A DNA stretch of 64,000 bases, taken from contig NZ_CP121197.1 in the NCBI RefSeq assembly GCF_029625215.1, positions 1,860,001-1,924,000 on the forward strand. The letters run 5' to 3'. Of this stretch, positions 49,155 through 55,501 are shown one piece after another; the stretch's first letter is position 1; every line of letters starts with the position of its first letter. The notes beneath the pieces were generated by a model. That model was not told where the DNA came from. It worked only from the letters and a program-made list of their open reading frames with translations, and ran no database searches. Made by a program: the position numbers and the translations under genes. The DNA comes from Aurantibacillus circumpalustris. Lineage in GTDB: Bacteria > Bacteroidota > Bacteroidia > B-17B0 > Aurantibacillaceae.

Positions 49155-49223
49155 AGTGAGCCAATAAAAAATTTGCAAATGCATGTACAAATGTCCGCTG
49201 GCGCCAGAGCCCGTGTTACCTGC
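49155..49223 (-). other. Degenerate cassette site A (left end of array)
   Basis: GTTACCTGC (49215-49223) is the exact reverse complement of GCAGGTAAC at 49962-49970, on the other side of the toxin-antitoxin cassette. After a 2-nt mismatch the complementarity resumes for 5 nt (GTGCT). The remaining 60 nt contain CTGGCGCCAG and GCGGACA but no complete second arm, so the site seems truncated. Confidence 0.6.
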
Positions 49224-49644
49224 TGGTGCTTTCGACTAGTGAGACCGCTTCTTTTGGAGTCAATATTGGCAATGAACTTGATTTAAAGTCTTTAGTGTCA
49301 CGAGTAACAATGAAGTCGATTTTACTTAGAGATTTTGCACAGTTGTATTGAATGGCATCTTCAAAGTCTTTGAAGTCAGATTTAATTGACTTTTTAATGA
49401 TGTCTTTGGTAACGTCGATAATGTCTGTCCATTCATTTAATTCGGCCAACATTTTAATTGTTTCTGCATGTGAACACGATTGTCGTAATATGTAGTAAAT
49501 ATTATTATAAGAAACCGCAGATATATAAATGTTTATTTCCTTTTTAAAAGAATAATTGAAAAGCCTAGCAGCTTCTATTGAAAAAGGTTTACGGTCTGCG
49601 AAAAAGTCAATTAATACGTTAGTGTCTAAAAAAATATTCTTCAT
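49216..49644 (-). CDS. PIN-domain toxin (VapC type)
   Basis: 142 aa. PIN nuclease residues: FLDTNVLIDFF (Asp7, Asp13), FEDAIQYNCA (Glu/Asp) and VTRDTKDF. An Mg-dependent RNase that would cut tRNA or rRNA. The gene overlaps the antitoxin by 4 nt (ATGA). Its stop codon TAA lies inside the cassette box AGGTAAC, and its last residues (ESTSR) are encoded by that box region. Asp codons are mainly GAC, unlike the surrounding chromosome. Confidence 0.87.
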   Translation of the reverse strand: MKNIFLDTNVLIDFFADRKPFSIEAARLFNYSFKKEINIYISAVSYNNIYYILRQSCSHAETIKMLAELNEWTDIIDVTKDIIKKSIKSDFKDFEDAIQYNCAKSLSKIDFIVTRDTKDFKSSSLPILTPKEAVSLVESTSR

Positions 49645-49889
49645 GATTTATATTTTTTCAGCAGACCTTTTGTTAATTCTTTTTTATAATCATAATCCTC
49701 TGGTAACTCTATAGCACCCATTAGTTTTAAGATTTTAGGAGAAATAGTTTCTACTTTATTTTCTTTAGACGTCAATGACATAAGATAGTTTTCTACTATG
49801 TCCGACAGACTTTTGCCTTTTTGTTTGGCGTATTTTTTTGCAATTGAGATTACTGAGTCGTCAATTGTCAAAGTGAGTTTTGTTGTCAT
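49641..49889 (-). CDS. Antitoxin for the PIN toxin (DUF6364-like)
   Basis: 82 aa from ATG 49889; the open frame runs back to 49940 but the ATG is preferred. N terminus TTKLTLTIDDSVISIAKKYA, then KQKGKSLSDIVENYLMSLT: a ribbon-helix-helix DNA-binding fold of the DUF6364 type, with a toxin-binding tail ending LTKGLLKKYKS. It probably represses its own promoter through the repeats at 49891-49925. Confidence 0.82.
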   Translation of the reverse strand: MTTKLTLTIDDSVISIAKKYAKQKGKSLSDIVENYLMSLTSKENKVETISPKILKLMGAIELPEDYDYKKELTKGLLKKYKS

Positions 49890-49890
49890 G

Positions 49891-49925
49891 ATACGTGTAA
49901 ATATGTCAGTAAATATACGTGTAAA
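49891..49925 (-). promoter_or_regulatory. Probable antitoxin operator (two ATACGTGTAAA repeats)
   Basis: The 11-mer occurs at 49891-49901 and 49915-49925, 24 nt apart, just upstream of the antitoxin start. A ribbon-helix-helix repressor would bind such a site. Confidence 0.55.
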
Positions 49926-49961
49926 ATTTGAGACTACCAAATACCTGTCCGGATAGCACTT

Positions 49962-50059
49962 GCAGGTAACGTTTTGCGCCTAGGCTCAGTTTTTGCTTGT
50001 CCAAATATAGTGTTTGAGCGCTAACACGCAAAAATTGAGCTTAGGCGCTGTTATAGGGC
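49962..50059 (-). other. attC-like cassette site B
   Basis: 98 nt. Left box GCAGGTAAC, right box GTTATAGGGC. Inside are complementary 21-nt arms, GCGCCTAGGCTCAGTTTTTG(C) and its near-reverse complement (two G-U positions only). The terminal boxes share only TAAC/GTTA with each other. Instead, the left box is complementary to site A and the right box to site C, that is, across the neighbouring genes. Confidence 0.75.
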
Positions 50060-50512
50060 GTTTTTATTTTTGTCTGTACGTTTTAATACTTTTGTGTCGA
50101 GGTCGTGAAATACTAATGTCAGTTCGTAAGCATTTGTTTCAATGAAAATTTTATAGAATTTGTTTCCGTATGTTTTTTCTAATTGAATTAATTCGTCTGT
50201 ATTTTCTGTCAGTGTCAAACCCGGATATGTCACGGCATAATTTACACCCCAAATAAAAGCTAAAGGATAATCTGATTCATTTTGTCTGGAAGGGTCAAGT
50301 AACCTGTCGTCCATTGAATAGTGCTCGGGTTTTACAATTACTTTAAAGTCCGCCTTGATACAACCTTTAAAAACATACTGAATTTCTTCTTCGTAGTCTT
50401 GTCCGCATATTAAACCAATTATTTCATAGTCACGAATATTGTCGAGTATACCGTGTCTGATAATTGCTTGGTCAAAAAGGTCGTGTTGGTCTAATTTTTC
50501 TTTAATTGTCAT
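50051..50512 (-). CDS. Cassette protein of unknown function
   Basis: 153 aa from ATG 50512 (a longer frame begins at TTG 50521). Acidic, mixed alpha/beta sequence (DYEIIGLICGQDYEEEIQYV, LTLVFHDLDTKVLKR), with no signal peptide or membrane helix. No family recognised. Its stop codon TAA is supplied by the cassette box CCCTATAAC, as for the upstream toxin. Asp is almost always GAC here. Confidence 0.65.
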   Translation of the reverse strand: MTIKEKLDQHDLFDQAIIRHGILDNIRDYEIIGLICGQDYEEEIQYVFKGCIKADFKVIVKPEHYSMDDRLLDPSRQNESDYPLAFIWGVNYAVTYPGLTLTENTDELIQLEKTYGNKFYKIFIETNAYELTLVFHDLDTKVLKRTDKNKNAL

Positions 50513-50524
50513 GGTTGTCAAAAT

Positions 50525-50646
50525 GCCCTATAACGGAATGCAGCTTGGCCTAGTGCCCGCCTGTCCGTAAAGTTAAATGCCCGAATGTCCAACGAGATGC
50601 CAAAATGCAAAATGCGCGGGCATTAGGCCAAACTGCTGTTACCGGC
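50525..50646 (-). other. attC-like cassette site C
   Basis: 122 nt. Left box GCCCTATAAC (complement of the right box of B across the 153-aa gene), right box GTTACCGGC (complement of the left box of D across the second PIN module). The long arms GCAGCTTGGCCTAGTGCCCG(C) and their near-complement pair over 21 nt with one mismatch and one G-U pair. The arm sequence differs from B and D. Confidence 0.75.
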
Positions 50647-50652
50647 TGTGCT

Positions 50653-50814
50653 TTATTGTCCAACTGATTTGAGTCCGCTCTTTTTGATGTGAGTCTCAAT
50701 GTATGCTTTTAATTCTTCGAATGTCATACCTGAAGTTTCAGAACTTATTTTGTCTCTGATCTCTCGCATCATTTTTACAGCGTCAAACGTTTTTGTTTTT
50801 TTATTCGTCTCCAT
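50653..50814 (-). CDS. Small antitoxin-like protein
   Basis: 53 aa: METNKKTKTFDAVKMMREIR..., ending GLKSVGQ. The pattern KTFDAVKMMREIRDKI...MTFEELKAYIE is typical of the short antitoxins accompanying PIN toxins in Bacteroidota. It overlaps the 3' end of the PIN gene by 14 nt, so the order is toxin then antitoxin. It ends 19 nt before the cassette box of site C. Confidence 0.7.
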   Translation of the reverse strand: METNKKTKTFDAVKMMREIRDKISSETSGMTFEELKAYIETHIKKSGLKSVGQ

Positions 50815-51265
50815 ATTTTATTAAATCTTTCGGACTTCTAATTTCAATCATTGGAAAACCAAGTCTGAGGTTTACCGAATTATAGCCTTTAATTCTGTCC
50901 AGGTTAACAATGTGTTTAAAATTCCAACTTGCTAATACGTCCACACGATTAATTGTGGCTAAAGCAATATGTCTGCAATCTTCAATGCTAGTTTTACCTA
51001 CTACTTTTTCTGAAACATAAGTGTCCGCAAGTTTCAAAGCCTCCTCAGTCAATAAAACGCGTTCAAAATTGTCTGAGGAGTAATTTTGTAGTAGCTGTCT
51101 AACACGTTCAGGTGCATATATTAACTCAAGGTCAAGTAGGTCTGAGATAACAAAAACTATTTCCTTTTTTTCAAGTCTGTCGAAGAGGCTCATTGTAGCT
51201 TCTTTAAACTCTTCGTCAAAATAACCTCCTACGACCGAAGTGTCTATGTAAATTCGCTGTTTCAC
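50801..51265 (-). CDS. PIN-domain toxin, second module
   Basis: 154 aa from GTG 51265. PIN features: IYIDTSVVGGYFDEE (Asp), a central Glu (DLLDLELIYAP), TSIEDCRHIALATINRVDVL (Glu/Asp) and ASWNFKHIVN (the W-N-F-KH form). It differs from the VapC at 49216, so the two modules are independent. Likely RNase toxin, neutralised by the overlapping 53-aa protein. Confidence 0.83.
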   Translation of the reverse strand: MKQRIYIDTSVVGGYFDEEFKEATMSLFDRLEKKEIVFVISDLLDLELIYAPERVRQLLQNYSSDNFERVLLTEEALKLADTYVSEKVVGKTSIEDCRHIALATINRVDVLASWNFKHIVNLDRIKGYNSVNLRLGFPMIEIRSPKDLIKYGDE

Positions 51266-51331
51266 AATATTAAAGATACGGATTTTATCCTAATTGATAA
51301 AATGTCTTGGAGTCCTGTCTGCACAAGCATT

Positions 51332-51430
51332 GCCGGTAACGGATTGCGCCTAGGCACAGTTTTTTGCTTGTCCAAGTTATGCATTTGAGCGCTAACGCGC
51401 AAAAAATTGGGCTTAGGCGCTGTTAGTACC
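51332..51430 (-). other. attC-like cassette site D
   Basis: 99 nt, close relative of B (same GCGCCTAGGC arm, same GAGCGCTAAC loop segment). Left box GCCGGTAAC complements C; right box GTTAGTACC complements GGTACTAAC at 54254-54262, about 2.8 kb away beyond the TPR gene. The complementarity with 54262 extends past a short mismatch into TTGCCGC. Confidence 0.75.
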
Positions 51431-51588
51431 TAGTTGCCGCTACACAGTTTAACTTCTGTTCACGTGTCCGCCGATAAATTGTAATATTGTCAAACCGATT
51501 TTTTACGCCCGAACTTTTTAATTTTTTGTGCGATAGGAATGCAATTTGAAAAATTGCTTGTTCTAATGTCCGCACAGGTGGGGTGGGA

Positions 51589-51691
51589 ATTTCGCAAGCT
51601 TATTTGGCGCCACAAAAAGTATTTGCCTTTGAAAAGAAGCGCCAAATGTGCTTGTGAAATGCGCAAAGGTTTAGGGCATCCGTTGGATAAC
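51589..51691 (-). other. Divergent hairpin E with possible box
   Basis: Arms at 51589-51610 and 51639-51660 pair over 22 nt (core TTATTTGGCGC / GCGCCAAATGTG, one mismatch region). GTTGGATAAC at 51682-51691 follows. The reverse complement of its first nine bases occurs at 54290-54298. The arm shares the GCTTATTTG / CAAATGTGC mismatch with F, but no clear TAAC box closes the left side. Confidence 0.5.
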
Positions 51692-51700
51692 TGTCTGCGG

Positions 51701-53917
51701 CTATTTCGACAAAGAAATATATTTTGATGTCAAAATAACTTTCTTATGATCAGATTTAAATTTCGCCTTATAAATCTCATTTGCCTGCGTAAAATATTTC
51801 AAAGCTTCATTTTTTCTTTTTTCTTTTAATCTGATTTCGCCTAAACCTGTTAAGTTATCGGCTATCTTATCGTGTTGGCTGTCAAGTGTTTTATTTATTA
51901 TTTCTAATGCCTGTTGAAATAGATTTTCGGATTCTGATAATTTCCCTTCTTTAAGCCTCAGATAGGCTTTATTATAAAGCACAGTTGCATAATCAGGGTG
52001 ATTTTTTCCAATTTGCATTTCATATATTCTCATCGTTCTGTTAAACAAAGTGTCCGCTTCTATAAATCTATTTTTTCTACTTTTTATAAGTCCTATCCCA
52101 TTTAGTGTAGAACCAAAGCTTATTTTATCTTCCATTTTATTAGTAGTATCAATTGAAAGACATTGCTCGTATAATTTTTCAGATTCGTTTGTGTTTTCAA
52201 TAAGGTAATTTATGTATGCTTCACTCCTGATGTACTGTGTCAAATATGGGTTATTCTTTTCCTCAAAGTATATGATTGCAATTTTTTTAGCCATTTGCGC
52301 CTGATCTAATGCGGCTTGATACTGTGTTAAATCACATTTTAAACTTGATAAGGCATCTAAGATGTCTGCGTATTGAATGGTTGTATTGTTAGTATAACTT
52401 AAAGCTTCATTAAATAAATTTTCTGCCGTTTCATAAAATCCTTGGTAATGCTTAACTAATCCTAGCCTTAGGAGTAAACTCCCATAGAAGTTATCTTTTG
52501 AAGAAGTGATTTTTTCAAGAATTTTGATTGACTTATTACAGCCTTGTTCAGCTTCCTTGTAGTCAGCTAGCGCTATATTAACTATGTTTAATCCATTAAG
52601 CACATTTAAGTAATAATAAGTATTTTCCCCATTAATTTTAAAAACTCTATTTAGAGATTGTTCCATTAAGGCTTTTGCTTTACGAAAATCTCCTTTGTTT
52701 AAAACATGAAAGGCGTAATTAGTGAGAGAAATTGAGTAGTCATGAGATTGTGAATATGTCTTTGTATCAAACGCTTTCTCAAAATATGCATCTGCCGAAT
52801 CATAAATTTGCCTTTTTGAATATGTCCAACCGATATCAGCATAGACGCCTGCAAGCGTATTAATGATAATGTCCTCTGGTTGATCCTTAAATTGTAAGCT
52901 GTTATAGTTCTTGGAACCACTTGTCAGTATAATTACGGCCGATTGGTAAACTTTAATCGCCTGTTGATAATAGTATTGTTCTCGATAGGAATTTGCTAGC
53001 AATTTCAAAGTTAATGCATAATAAATGTTTTTAGTTTTAAAATGATTTTCATACAAGTTCAGGGCCTCAATGAATAGTGAATCGGCTTTATTGTATTTTT
53101 CAGCTCGCACATACAGCTCGCCTAAAAGGGTTTTTAAATATGCATTTTCTTGAGAGCTGTCTCCGTAAAGAATTCTAAGAGGTCGTTGTATGGCATAAAT
53201 ATTTTCGAGAACTTTATCGTCAGAACCTTCATAAATATTTTTCTCGATAAGACCCCAATATGCTCTATACTGAGCTATAAAACCATCGAAATAAGTTGTG
53301 TCATATCCGATTTCATAAAACTCTATTGCCTTTTGTGAAAAAACAAGGCTTTGCTCATATTCTTTGTTTTCTGAAAGCTGCATTGCCAATTTATAATTTT
53401 TTTGAGCCAAACCTCTACTGTGCAAAGTAGGTATATTTCTATTGAGATAAATGTTGATGAAATCTAATGGAAGGAAAAGTATAATTACACTCAAAGTAAT
53501 AATAACGGAACATCTAATTATAAGTCCTTTATAATATTTGACTTTTTCAATTAATGCATTCTTTCTGTTTCTGCGTAATAGATGTATAAGTAGAAAAAAT
53601 AAAACTAGATTCGGGGCATTTAATAATAACAGTATAGCGTTAGGCATATTAAAGATTTTGAGTGTGAAACCCATAATACCTGAAGCGAAAGCCACACCGC
53701 AAAAAATTGCAAAGAAAGTTGACTTTACCTTATTGGTGTATTCATCTGGTATGTACAACTGATAACCTAAAAATGAAATATATAAGAAAGCCAAAAAGTG
53801 GACAAGTGCATAAACCCCAGATTCAATTTCAAATCCAAAAATATTATTCAGATAAAAAAGTAAGACTATACCAAAAACTATGATTTCTATTTTCTTCATG
53901 GGTACAAGCGAATGCAT
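51701..53917 (-). CDS. TPR-repeat membrane protein
   Basis: 738 aa. The N-terminal ~165 residues have four membrane helices (IIVFGIVLLFYLNNIFGF, IIRCSVIITLSVIILFL). About a dozen tetratricopeptide-type repeats follow (for example YEQSLVFSQKAIEFYEIGYD and LSESENLFQQALEIINKTLD) up to the C terminus. It is a protein-interaction scaffold anchored in the membrane; no kinase or HTH domain is attached. ATG 53899 is an alternative start. It lies in the largest cassette, between sites D and 54262. Confidence 0.8.
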   Translation of the reverse strand: MHSLVPMKKIEIIVFGIVLLFYLNNIFGFEIESGVYALVHFLAFLYISFLGYQLYIPDEYTNKVKSTFFAIFCGVAFASGIMGFTLKIFNMPNAILLLLNAPNLVLFFLLIHLLRRNRKNALIEKVKYYKGLIIRCSVIITLSVIILFLPLDFINIYLNRNIPTLHSRGLAQKNYKLAMQLSENKEYEQSLVFSQKAIEFYEIGYDTTYFDGFIAQYRAYWGLIEKNIYEGSDDKVLENIYAIQRPLRILYGDSSQENAYLKTLLGELYVRAEKYNKADSLFIEALNLYENHFKTKNIYYALTLKLLANSYREQYYYQQAIKVYQSAVIILTSGSKNYNSLQFKDQPEDIIINTLAGVYADIGWTYSKRQIYDSADAYFEKAFDTKTYSQSHDYSISLTNYAFHVLNKGDFRKAKALMEQSLNRVFKINGENTYYYLNVLNGLNIVNIALADYKEAEQGCNKSIKILEKITSSKDNFYGSLLLRLGLVKHYQGFYETAENLFNEALSYTNNTTIQYADILDALSSLKCDLTQYQAALDQAQMAKKIAIIYFEEKNNPYLTQYIRSEAYINYLIENTNESEKLYEQCLSIDTTNKMEDKISFGSTLNGIGLIKSRKNRFIEADTLFNRTMRIYEMQIGKNHPDYATVLYNKAYLRLKEGKLSESENLFQQALEIINKTLDSQHDKIADNLTGLGEIRLKEKRKNEALKYFTQANEIYKAKFKSDHKKVILTSKYISLSK

Positions 53918-53993
53918 ATTTACATATTTTATTTTAAATAATTCTTAAATTAGGATGGTAAAACTCTTAAGTTTCGTTTTCTGTGTGTAGGAG

Positions 53994-54055
53994 ATTGCAG
54001 CTTATTTGTTTGGCTTTACCAAATGTCCTCCCTGGCCAAACAAATGTGCTGCAAT
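53994..54055 (-). other. Divergent hairpin F
   Basis: Arms 53994-54014 and 54035-54055 pair over 21 nt with only a T-T mismatch and a G-T pair in GCTTATTTG / CAAATGTGC, the same defect as in hairpin E. No TAAC/GTTA boxes adjoin it, so it is degenerate or of another function. Confidence 0.55.
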
Positions 54056-54253
54056 TGCTATAGCCATTATGCGCCGCGTCACGTCGCAGAGAAAAGCGTC
54101 GAAAAAAAAAATTAAAAATCGTCTTGGAATATATTTGTTTAGTTGTCGAGACGTCAACCGAAATGTTGTCGACCGGAATGCCAGAAGTTTTTGAAACCGA
54201 AAACTCTTTTGTCCAGCGTAAAATCGTCATTGGAGATGTCCGCTGCGGCAATT

Positions 54254-54262
54254 GGTACTAAC
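54254..54262 (-). other. Cassette boundary box pairing with site D
   Basis: GGTACTAAC is the exact reverse complement of GTTAGTACC at 51422-51430. It is preceded on the + strand by GCGGCAATT, which continues the complementarity after a short mismatch. It is read as the start of the TPR cassette. Confidence 0.6.
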
Positions 54263-54367
54263 TACCTTATACCCGCTATAATCTTTCGCTTATCCAACAT
54301 ACATATGGGAGATTGGCGAATGTTTATGACGGAGATTAAATCCATAAAACGAAGCAAAAATGCGTAA

Positions 54368-55501
54368 TTATTTAACAATAATTTTTCCCTGAAAGGTTTC
54401 CTTTTCTGAAATAAGCTTATAAGAATACACGCCCTTATCTTTTCCTTCCAAATTAATTTCGTGACTTGTTTCTTTAAAAGTATTTGTGTAAATAAGTTTT
54501 CCTGTTACATCCAACACCTCTAGTTGATCTCCAAGTTGTGCATTCTCAAATACAAATTTCCCTGAACTAGGGTTTGGAAAGACAGTAAACTTTGAAGCTT
54601 CTTGCTTTTGTTTAATACCTACGAGATCTATGAAAGTTTCGAAGGTCCAAACGTCTGACCAATCACTTACATGGCCACCGTTGTTTGCTTTTACTCGCCA
54701 GTAATATTTTGTTCCTGGTAACAAACCACTATTAACATAAGCCGAAAGATTTCCAGTTTCTAAAGTTTTAATAATAGATGTAAAACTAGAATCATCTGCA
54801 ACTTCAAGCGTGTAAATTATTCCTACTGGTACAGCGTTCCATTTTAATAAAGGTGCAATGTTTATACTTACAGAAAGGCTATTATCAGGCGGTGAATTAA
54901 GTGTAGGTTTTAAAGGAAGTGTGTCGTTGGAGCCTATGTAGGTTATATGCATTTCATGTTTTACGTTTGGTAAGTCATTTGAATTTCTTGGTGCTAATAC
55001 AATTGAATCAGCATAATTCATTCCACCTATTACTCTTCCATAAACAGAATATTGCCCGTTTAAATTTGGAGCGGCAGCTACACAAATGAAAAATTGTGAA
55101 GTGGCTGAATTAATATTTGTGGATCTTGCAGCCGATAATATCCCTCTTAAATGTTTGGCAGCACTAAATTCTGCATTTACATTAGGTTGACTAGGCTGAC
55201 CGAATCCCCAGGTAGAAGTTGCTCCATGTCTTGAGTTGGGATCGCCTCCTTGTATCATAAATCCTGGAATAACACGATGAAAAGCCGTGCTGTCGTAGAA
55301 CTGCATACTCACTAAGCTGTCAAAATTACGTGTGTGATGATAAGCTATAGCTGGGAATAATTCTACTTTTATTGATCCCAAATAAATCCCACCACGTTTT
55401 ACATCAATATTATACATGGGTTTTCCAGTATAAACAACCTGTGCTTTTGTGAAATTTGCAACGAATAAAAAAATAGATAAAAAGGTGTAGATTTTTTTCA
55501 T
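54368..55501 (-). CDS. Cyclophilin-type peptidyl-prolyl isomerase with T9SS domain
   Basis: 377 aa. Signal peptide (IFLFVANFTKAQ), then a cyclophilin domain (FHRVIPGFMIQGGDPNSRHG, ATSQFFICVAAAPNLNGQYS). A fibronectin type III-like domain (LLKWNAVPVGIIYTLEVADD, PGTKYYWRVKANNGGHVSDW) and a type A T9SS domain (FTVFPNPSSGKFVFENAQLG) follow. It would catalyse proline isomerisation outside the cytoplasm, probably at the surface; T9SS-tagged cyclophilins are typical of this phylum. Confidence 0.9.
   Translation of the reverse strand: MKKIYTFLSIFLFVANFTKAQVVYTGKPMYNIDVKRGGIYLGSIKVELFPAIAYHHTRNFDSLVSMQFYDSTAFHRVIPGFMIQGGDPNSRHGATSTWGFGQPSQPNVNAEFSAAKHLRGILSAARSTNINSATSQFFICVAAAPNLNGQYSVYGRVIGGMNYADSIVLAPRNSNDLPNVKHEMHITYIGSNDTLPLKPTLNSPPDNSLSVSINIAPLLKWNAVPVGIIYTLEVADDSSFTSIIKTLETGNLSAYVNSGLLPGTKYYWRVKANNGGHVSDWSDVWTFETFIDLVGIKQKQEASKFTVFPNPSSGKFVFENAQLGDQLEVLDVTGKLIYTNTFKETSHEINLEGKDKGVYSYKLISEKETFQGKIIVK

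Follow-up and report, generated by a model that had tools for sequence, protein, structure and literature searches.

Two imperfect hairpins, E and F, lie on either side of a tetratricopeptide-repeat gene in a 64,000-nucleotide stretch of Aurantibacillus circumpalustris DNA (the window; G000:C1:1860001-1924000 of its own single-contig 4.6-Mb genome). The hairpins are kept by selection on their pairing, with a T·T mismatch preserved inside the stem. Judged from sequence comparison in a biased sample, E and F appear to mark a second, oversized class of cassettes, often multi-gene and mixed-strand, in the integron-like arrays of this bacterium and its relatives.

Selection on the fold of hairpins E and F

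Hairpin E occupies 51567-51681 of the + strand (model R1, 109.5 bits; stem at about 51584-51665, arms 51584-51610/51639-51665), and hairpin F occupies 53974-54084 of the same strand (model R2, 81.2 bits; stem 53994-54055, arms 53994-54014/54035-54055). The core common to both, GCTTATTTG against CAAATGTGC, is found at 51598-51606/51643-51651 in E and at 54000-54008/54041-54049 in F, and contains one T·T mismatch and one T·G wobble. The initial annotation had reported both hairpins with this shared mismatch and wobble, and the arms and cores were located as described. Its treatment of E and F as members of a single family was also right. When the core was searched in paired form, with a gap of 16-46 nt, it gave five matches in the own genome and was present in 21 of 100 genomes, the own one included. 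The reversed-control pattern gave no match in the same 100 genomes; thus the shared core recurs far above chance. The core matches sort into an E type with a large loop after GGCGC and an F type with two loop variants. In the second own-genome copy (L002/L153), E and F again enclose a gene, a different one, between attC-like hairpins.

Covariance models were built for E (R1, from 26 sites), for F (R2, from 22 sites) and for the attC-like hairpins (R3, from 38 sites of one length class). The loci of alignments A1 and A2 were collected with the exact core pattern, and the core invariance there is therefore partly by construction; R1 and R2 matches form a fairer, though overlapping, basis. Alignments A3 and A4 were fitted to the model structure, and opposite-strand, stray and duplicate rows were removed (6 of 54 from A3 and 22 of 66 from A4). 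Changes on both sides were observed in 12 of the 17 stem pairs of E (48 cleaned rows) and in 8 of the 13 stem pairs of F (44 cleaned rows). In the mismatch column of E, T·T was present in 41 of the 48 rows and T·G in the other seven, with no Watson-Crick pair. The same column of F had T·T in 37 of 44 rows, T·G in three, T-A in three and T·C in one. Overall, 78 of the 92 sites carry T·T and three carry T-A. The covariation score of the uncleaned alignments was matched by none of 500 shuffles and was lost with slid structures.

Conservation is highest at the hairpins themselves, with 0.79 per 60 columns for E and 0.70-0.76 for F, and is lower in the arms between the hairpins and the cassette ends. 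Inwards of E it has fallen to background after about 35 bp. Inwards of F it continues for about another 90 bp in most relatives, whereas in the window, as in a small number of others, it stops close to the hairpin; the core hairpin persists where this conserved cargo-side stretch is missing. With DNA parameters, the fold of the + strand is the more stable one at 37 of 48 E sites and 40 of 49 F sites, the difference being slight. The + strand probably corresponds to the attC bottom strand of the usual drawing, since attI is at the right end.

Within one cassette (G033:C30, L180 4592-9486) the diverged E and F both carry the core GCTCTTTTG, as if changing together; other cassettes have unlike cores in their E and F. 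By eye, degenerate repeats some 14 bp long and resembling GGTCGATACACACA were noticed on both sides of E in L160 and L203. Support for them is weak because the repeat finder found none around E in L160 and a 14-nt unit with 2.1 copies in L203.

Pairing of the hairpins and the two cassette size classes

The TPR gene is enclosed by a cassette of 2.8 kb. This cassette starts with the box GTTAGTACC (51422-51430, + strand) and ends with its exact complement GGTACTAAC (54254-54262, + strand), which upholds the earlier suggestion that the gene lies inside a cassette. The match to E starts 141 bp and that to F ends 178 bp inside the ends. The leader arm (51431-51566) and the trailer arm (54085-54253), both on the + strand, are alike among E/F cassettes, and the cargo is a 738-aa tetratricopeptide-repeat protein on the - strand (51701-53917; TPR_12, E-value 7.4e-42). 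The attC-like hairpin D (TAACG...GTTA; 51337-51425, + strand) adjoins the cassette. E and F had been described as lacking TAAC boxes. This applies to the hairpins proper, and the complementary GTTA/TAAC boxes are found 141 and 178 bp further out.

The cassette end is abutted by an attI-like site (54259-54327, - strand), which shows 97% identity over 69 nt to the one that accompanies the tyrosine recombinase at G000:C1:1338285. A further cassette boundary had been proposed from a 9-nt match between E and position 54290. The sequences GTTGGATAAC at 51682 and TTATCCAAC at 54290 are present, and their match is at chance level: one of this length turns up in 6.5% of 100x100-nt window pairs drawn at random, and in 61% of cases when a 300-nt window is compared with a 400-nt window at a distance of 2.4 kb. 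Moreover, TTATCCAAC falls within the attI-like site, and among 48 E copies with flanks read, GTTGGATAA occurs within 100 bp of the window's own E only. The GTTGGATAA/TTATCCAAC boundary was thus rejected as a chance match inside the attI-like site.

At E-values up to 0.001, R1 was found in 24 of 40 congeneric genomes and R2 in 26, three of the latter through matches of 1e-4 or weaker only. The attC model R3 was found in 35 of the 40, so the arrays are commoner than E and F. In the family, R1 was present in 39 of 87 genomes. A distant blastn search of phages and plasmids with 51420-51700 gave no match, nor did a search of viral contigs with one exact E-type pattern. In a pattern scan of genome contigs, matches outside Bacteroidota are, by estimate, what chance would give at the pattern length used.

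Pairing was counted with 63 of the 68 R1 rows and the best 70 R2 rows (E-values up to 1.8e-6), weaker rows and opposite-strand echoes being excluded. With one tandem pair counted as a single site there were 62 E sites; 41 of these were followed by F as the next match, on the same strand and 1.1-15.1 kb away. No contig had kept E/F matches on both strands. In the arrays of relatives E and F alternate, and the gaps between neighbouring F and E (five cases) measure about 460-570 bp, each containing an attC-like hairpin. Complementary GTTA/TAAC ends of at least 8 nt enclose 32 of the 37 E-F pairs for which both flanks were available; with shuffled partners the mean was 5.8 and the maximum 13. Thus, in the covariance-model search and position comparison among relatives that the initial annotation had proposed, E and F recur at short distances inside cassette ends, and copies unconnected to cassettes, which it had named as evidence to the contrary, were mostly not encountered.

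The general layout is a GTTA box, an arm of 116-222 bp, E, one to ten open reading frames (ORFs), F (sometimes two), an arm of 131-429 bp and a TAAC box. When such cassettes are in tandem or circular, F and E therefore stand on either side of each attC-like site in one orientation. Doubled F, with two matches about 100 bp apart, was seen in G036:C85, C126 and C19, in G012:C19 and C1, and at G000:C1:3481062-3481269. Doubled E was seen once, in G028:C302, the two lying 139 bp apart.

Cassette sizes were compared in two sets. The first contained 80 rows with matched ends, reduced to 79 by dropping a spanning row (G017:C47, 11,218 bp); one G000 row of 1,512 bp with an inner attC call was kept. E and/or F were present in 23 of the 79 (21 with both, two with E only), which measured 1,512-15,773 bp. 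The 56 cassettes without E/F measured 397-1,532 bp, apart from four of 2,117, 3,101, 3,572 and 4,894 bp. The 4,894-bp cassette has diverged E and F at the expected distances, with GCTCTTTTG replacing GCTTATTTG, and is counted as lacking them. The second set was obtained from 20 loci fetched by the attC model and comprised 41 single cassettes of 367-1,640 bp, three composites (3194, 4583 and 8653 bp) enclosing further complete cassettes having been dropped. None of these 41 attC-chosen cassettes contained E or F. This set is not neutral either, since five of the loci were picked for a long E/F-free attC-to-attC interval and others came from E/F-poor genomes or contigs; for detecting large cassettes without E/F, it is a fair test. 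Among the long intervals, that of L269 consisted of five small cassettes, and those of L266, L265 and L268 were resolved in part.

With a duplicate between the sets (L269 4208-4830) removed, E/F were present in 22 of the 26 cassettes above 1,640 bp and in one of the 93 at or below this size. Expressed by class, 22 of the 23 E/F cassettes exceed 1.6 kb and reach up to 15.8 kb, and 92 of the 96 without E/F measure at most 1,640 bp. The classes also differ in cargo. In 38 E/F cassettes (of the 41 pairs), 93 of the 127 ORFs of at least 120 aa share a strand and 34 lie on the opposite one, both strands being used in 11 of the 38. In the 41 small cassettes, with a minimum length of 80 aa, there were 40 ORFs, none of them on the second strand (40 and 0).

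Cargo in G011 comprises genes for a thioesterase and a diphthamide-synthase-like protein as well as a segment of four genes that includes CobT- and CobS-type ones. Loci collinear with this segment exist in three relatives, and in one of these, G027, neither E nor F was matched. Elsewhere a C5-methylase/restriction pair is carried. The cargo can be mosaic: the cassettes of G014 and G036 agree on the E side and over 2 kb of cargo and then diverge, and the remainder of the G014 cassette matches a G017 cassette. In L155 (G030), two neighbouring E/F cassettes share a small ORF beside F, named SymE-like by eye.

Recombinase and integron likeness

A site related to the attI-like one links array and recombinase in two relatives (84% identity over 56 nt in G017 and 82% over 34 nt in G006). 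The own-genome recombinase has 389 aa with Phage_int_SAM_4 and Phage_integrase domains. Its best NCBIfam match is the XerA/integron integrase family NF040815 (208.6 of the 220 bits required), and on the integron integrase model TIGR02249 it scores 201 of 265 bits. Among the matches listed, the TIGR02249 cut-off was reached in none of 60 genomes. The array-type matches cover about 2-179 and 238-315 of this model and leave 180-238 uncovered, which presumably is the IntI-specific insertion. By sequence, the closest solved structures are XerA, a XerC-like protein and IntI4. In the own genome one copy of the array recombinase stands directly downstream of a RecA-like gene (L182 4764-7101; named from the translation only).

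The system likely works like an integron, as predicted from its anatomy. It shares with integrons the attC-like hairpins, with complementary outer boxes, an inner stem and a folded hairpin, and the attI-like site with a tyrosine recombinase beside it and the first cassette abutting. The small cassettes carry about one ORF each, in one direction in the 41 examined. Unlike IntI, the recombinase stays below the TIGR02249 cut-off, and its 3' end faces attI; moreover, 5 of 80 cassette starts fit the core box GTTRRRY. The arrays are called integron-like because the recombinase is under the IntI cut-off and GTTRRRY boxes are mostly absent. The E/F class of 1.5-15.8 kb is a further difference, and to our knowledge it has no known integron counterpart.

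By family model and by structure, the array recombinase comes closest to Xer/XerA recombinases (NF040815, PDB 5hxy), from which it differs in an N-terminal extension of about 100 aa; all four recombinases tested stay slightly under the NF040815 cut-off, with 208.6-218.3 of 220 bits. The window array resembles a cluster of attC sites lacking integron-integrases (CALIN) in that no recombinase was found beside it: tblastn of the own-genome recombinase against the window gave nothing significant (best E-value 0.11), and no recombinase remnant was found there. Unlike a CALIN, the array retains the 97% copy of the attI-like site from another locus of the same genome. The copies at 1338285 or 4493137 may serve this site at the array end in trans.

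Bacteroidota are counted among the integron phyla in the available parts of two papers (PMC8618304, PMC9668308). The present data point to integron-like arrays in this phylum whose recombinase is not called by the integron model.

Possible roles of E and F

It is quite possible, and preferred here, that E and F are inner end-markers of oversized integron-like cassettes, acting as folded single-stranded DNA and thereby aiding the mobility of large cassettes. They would work as single-strand hairpins on the attC bottom strand and would be recognised by a protein, which could be the recombinase, an accessory protein or a host hairpin-binding protein. In this way they might assist the excision, the carriage as a single strand or the re-establishment of cassettes larger than about 1.5 kb. 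Action as folded DNA is suggested by the orientation, fixed relative to attC whatever the direction of the genes, and by the lack of terminator and RNA-family matches. In canonical attC, according to the part of PMC2727003 that was available, strand choice is set by extrahelical bases, and a kept mismatch thus has a precedent as a strand mark. The available part of PMC5371416 reports an in vivo drop in excision that is consistent only for cassettes of at least 1,500 bp with a poorly folding attC and the bottom strand on the lagging template; the size break of the E/F cassettes near 1.5 kb coincides with this drop. Among the open-access titles and beginnings of abstracts that were listed, none dealt with paired hairpins inside cassettes or with a class of large cassettes; the scope did not extend to subscription papers and preprints.

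Several observations weigh against this explanation. Cassettes of 2.1, 3.1 and 3.6 kb have no recognisable E/F and carry one to three larger ORFs each, and two E-bearing cassettes were scored as having no F in the main count, although the G006 one gave a weak match to it. The large cassettes come mostly from loci fetched because of E/F, which is a sampling bias, and the attC-chosen loci lean to E/F-free stretches; the 2.4-kb interval in L267 and parts of others did not resolve into cassettes. Five of the 37 E-F pairs are not enclosed by complementary ends. Among the 21 unpaired E, two E-E cases and six others were looked at individually: two E precede another E with no recognised F between them (G000 3472952 and G012:C19 25714), and the contig G005:C13 continues for 358 kb past its unpaired E, with no R2 match in that genome; for four others the contig ends after 0.2-5.1 kb, and the G006 E is followed farther along by a weak F match. 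Part of the greater stability of the + strand is due simply to the T·G wobble. Furthermore, as far as the available part of PMC5371416 goes, two well-folding attC sites show no length effect, and its authors conclude that short cassette genes do not result from a recombination limit; a size barrier for E/F to overcome is therefore not established. Both the E/F-binding protein and the excision are hypothetical. Common descent of one chassis could explain the pairing, but not the covariation with the kept mismatch.

A somewhat unlikely alternative is that E and F are transcription or RNA elements, such as terminators, insulators, leaders or 3' structures, of self-contained multi-gene cassettes. 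They flank the cargo, with F upstream and E downstream of most genes in the cassette sense, and large cassettes with genes on both strands (11 of 38) may need insulation. However, a consensus scan for Rho-independent terminators (GC-rich stem plus T run, loops of 3-8 nt) found none in 51300-54500, and no Rfam family matched over E or F up to an E-value of 1, the Rfam gathering score not being reached. Moreover, the orientation of the hairpins is fixed though 34 of the 127 ORFs run opposite.

E and F could also be second-layer recombination or capture sites, an enzyme acting on both hairpins to exchange or load cargo and so generate cassettes. How cassettes form is largely unknown according to the available part of PMC5371416. 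Such loading agrees with unrelated cargo on similar arms, including the CobT/CobS-type segment and the restriction-modification pair, and with the mosaic of the G014, G036 and G017 cassettes. It is rendered unlikely by the cargo junction, which can lie anywhere between the base of the hairpin and a point about 100 bp deeper inside and so gives no fixed cut; nor was any empty or hybrid E/F site or dedicated enzyme seen, with no systematic search having been made. That the unit F - attC - E is a reusable chassis, into which arbitrary and even multi-gene segments are loaded between the hairpins to give oversized mobile cassettes, is quite unlikely; if true, the origin of cassettes would have a concrete explanation that can be tested.

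Passive descent of the large cassettes from one ancestor, with E and F as functionless relics (the 'decayed site' of the initial annotation being one such case), would account for the arms being alike among E/F cassettes. It is improbable in view of the compensatory changes, the preserved mismatch and the hairpins being more conserved than the arms. As for decayed attC sites proper, E and F were rejected as such: they have no TAAC/GTTA boxes, intact attC-like sites coexist separately, the stems covary with the mismatch kept, and the hairpins stand at short distances inside the cassette ends.

The least probable source of E and F is an IS200/IS605-like or REP/RAYT-like element moved by a Y1 HUH transposase, with E and F as its left and right ends. 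The ends of such elements are likewise imperfect hairpins at both sides, in a fixed orientation and recognised as a single strand. Some Y1 match is present in 29 of 40 genomes, but six E-bearing genomes (G023, G012, G014, G015, G030 and G005) have no Y1_Tnp match, so a Y1 transposase seems not to be the E/F reader. The nearest Y1 on E/F contigs, among the matches listed, is about 66 kb away (G018:C17), and most E-F pairs lie inside integron-like cassettes, close to their ends. This origin was rejected on the distribution of Y1 matches.

A second cassette class of 1.5-16 kb, equipped with a conserved hairpin pair of its own, would extend integron-type mobility to multi-gene segments and restriction systems. 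The hairpins would also be a defined DNA module, which can be removed for tests of size-dependent mobility or cargo loading.

To the left of the E/F cassette, the window array continues with two further attC-like hairpins on the + strand, B (49967-50053) and C (50531-50641), and with two small cassettes without E/F on the - strand, one of 481 bp (50053-50534) and one of 699 bp (50641-51340). The gene of the latter (50801-51265) has a PIN match just below the Pfam cut-off, and toxin-antitoxin cargo of the small cassettes in 49214-51340 is a guess.

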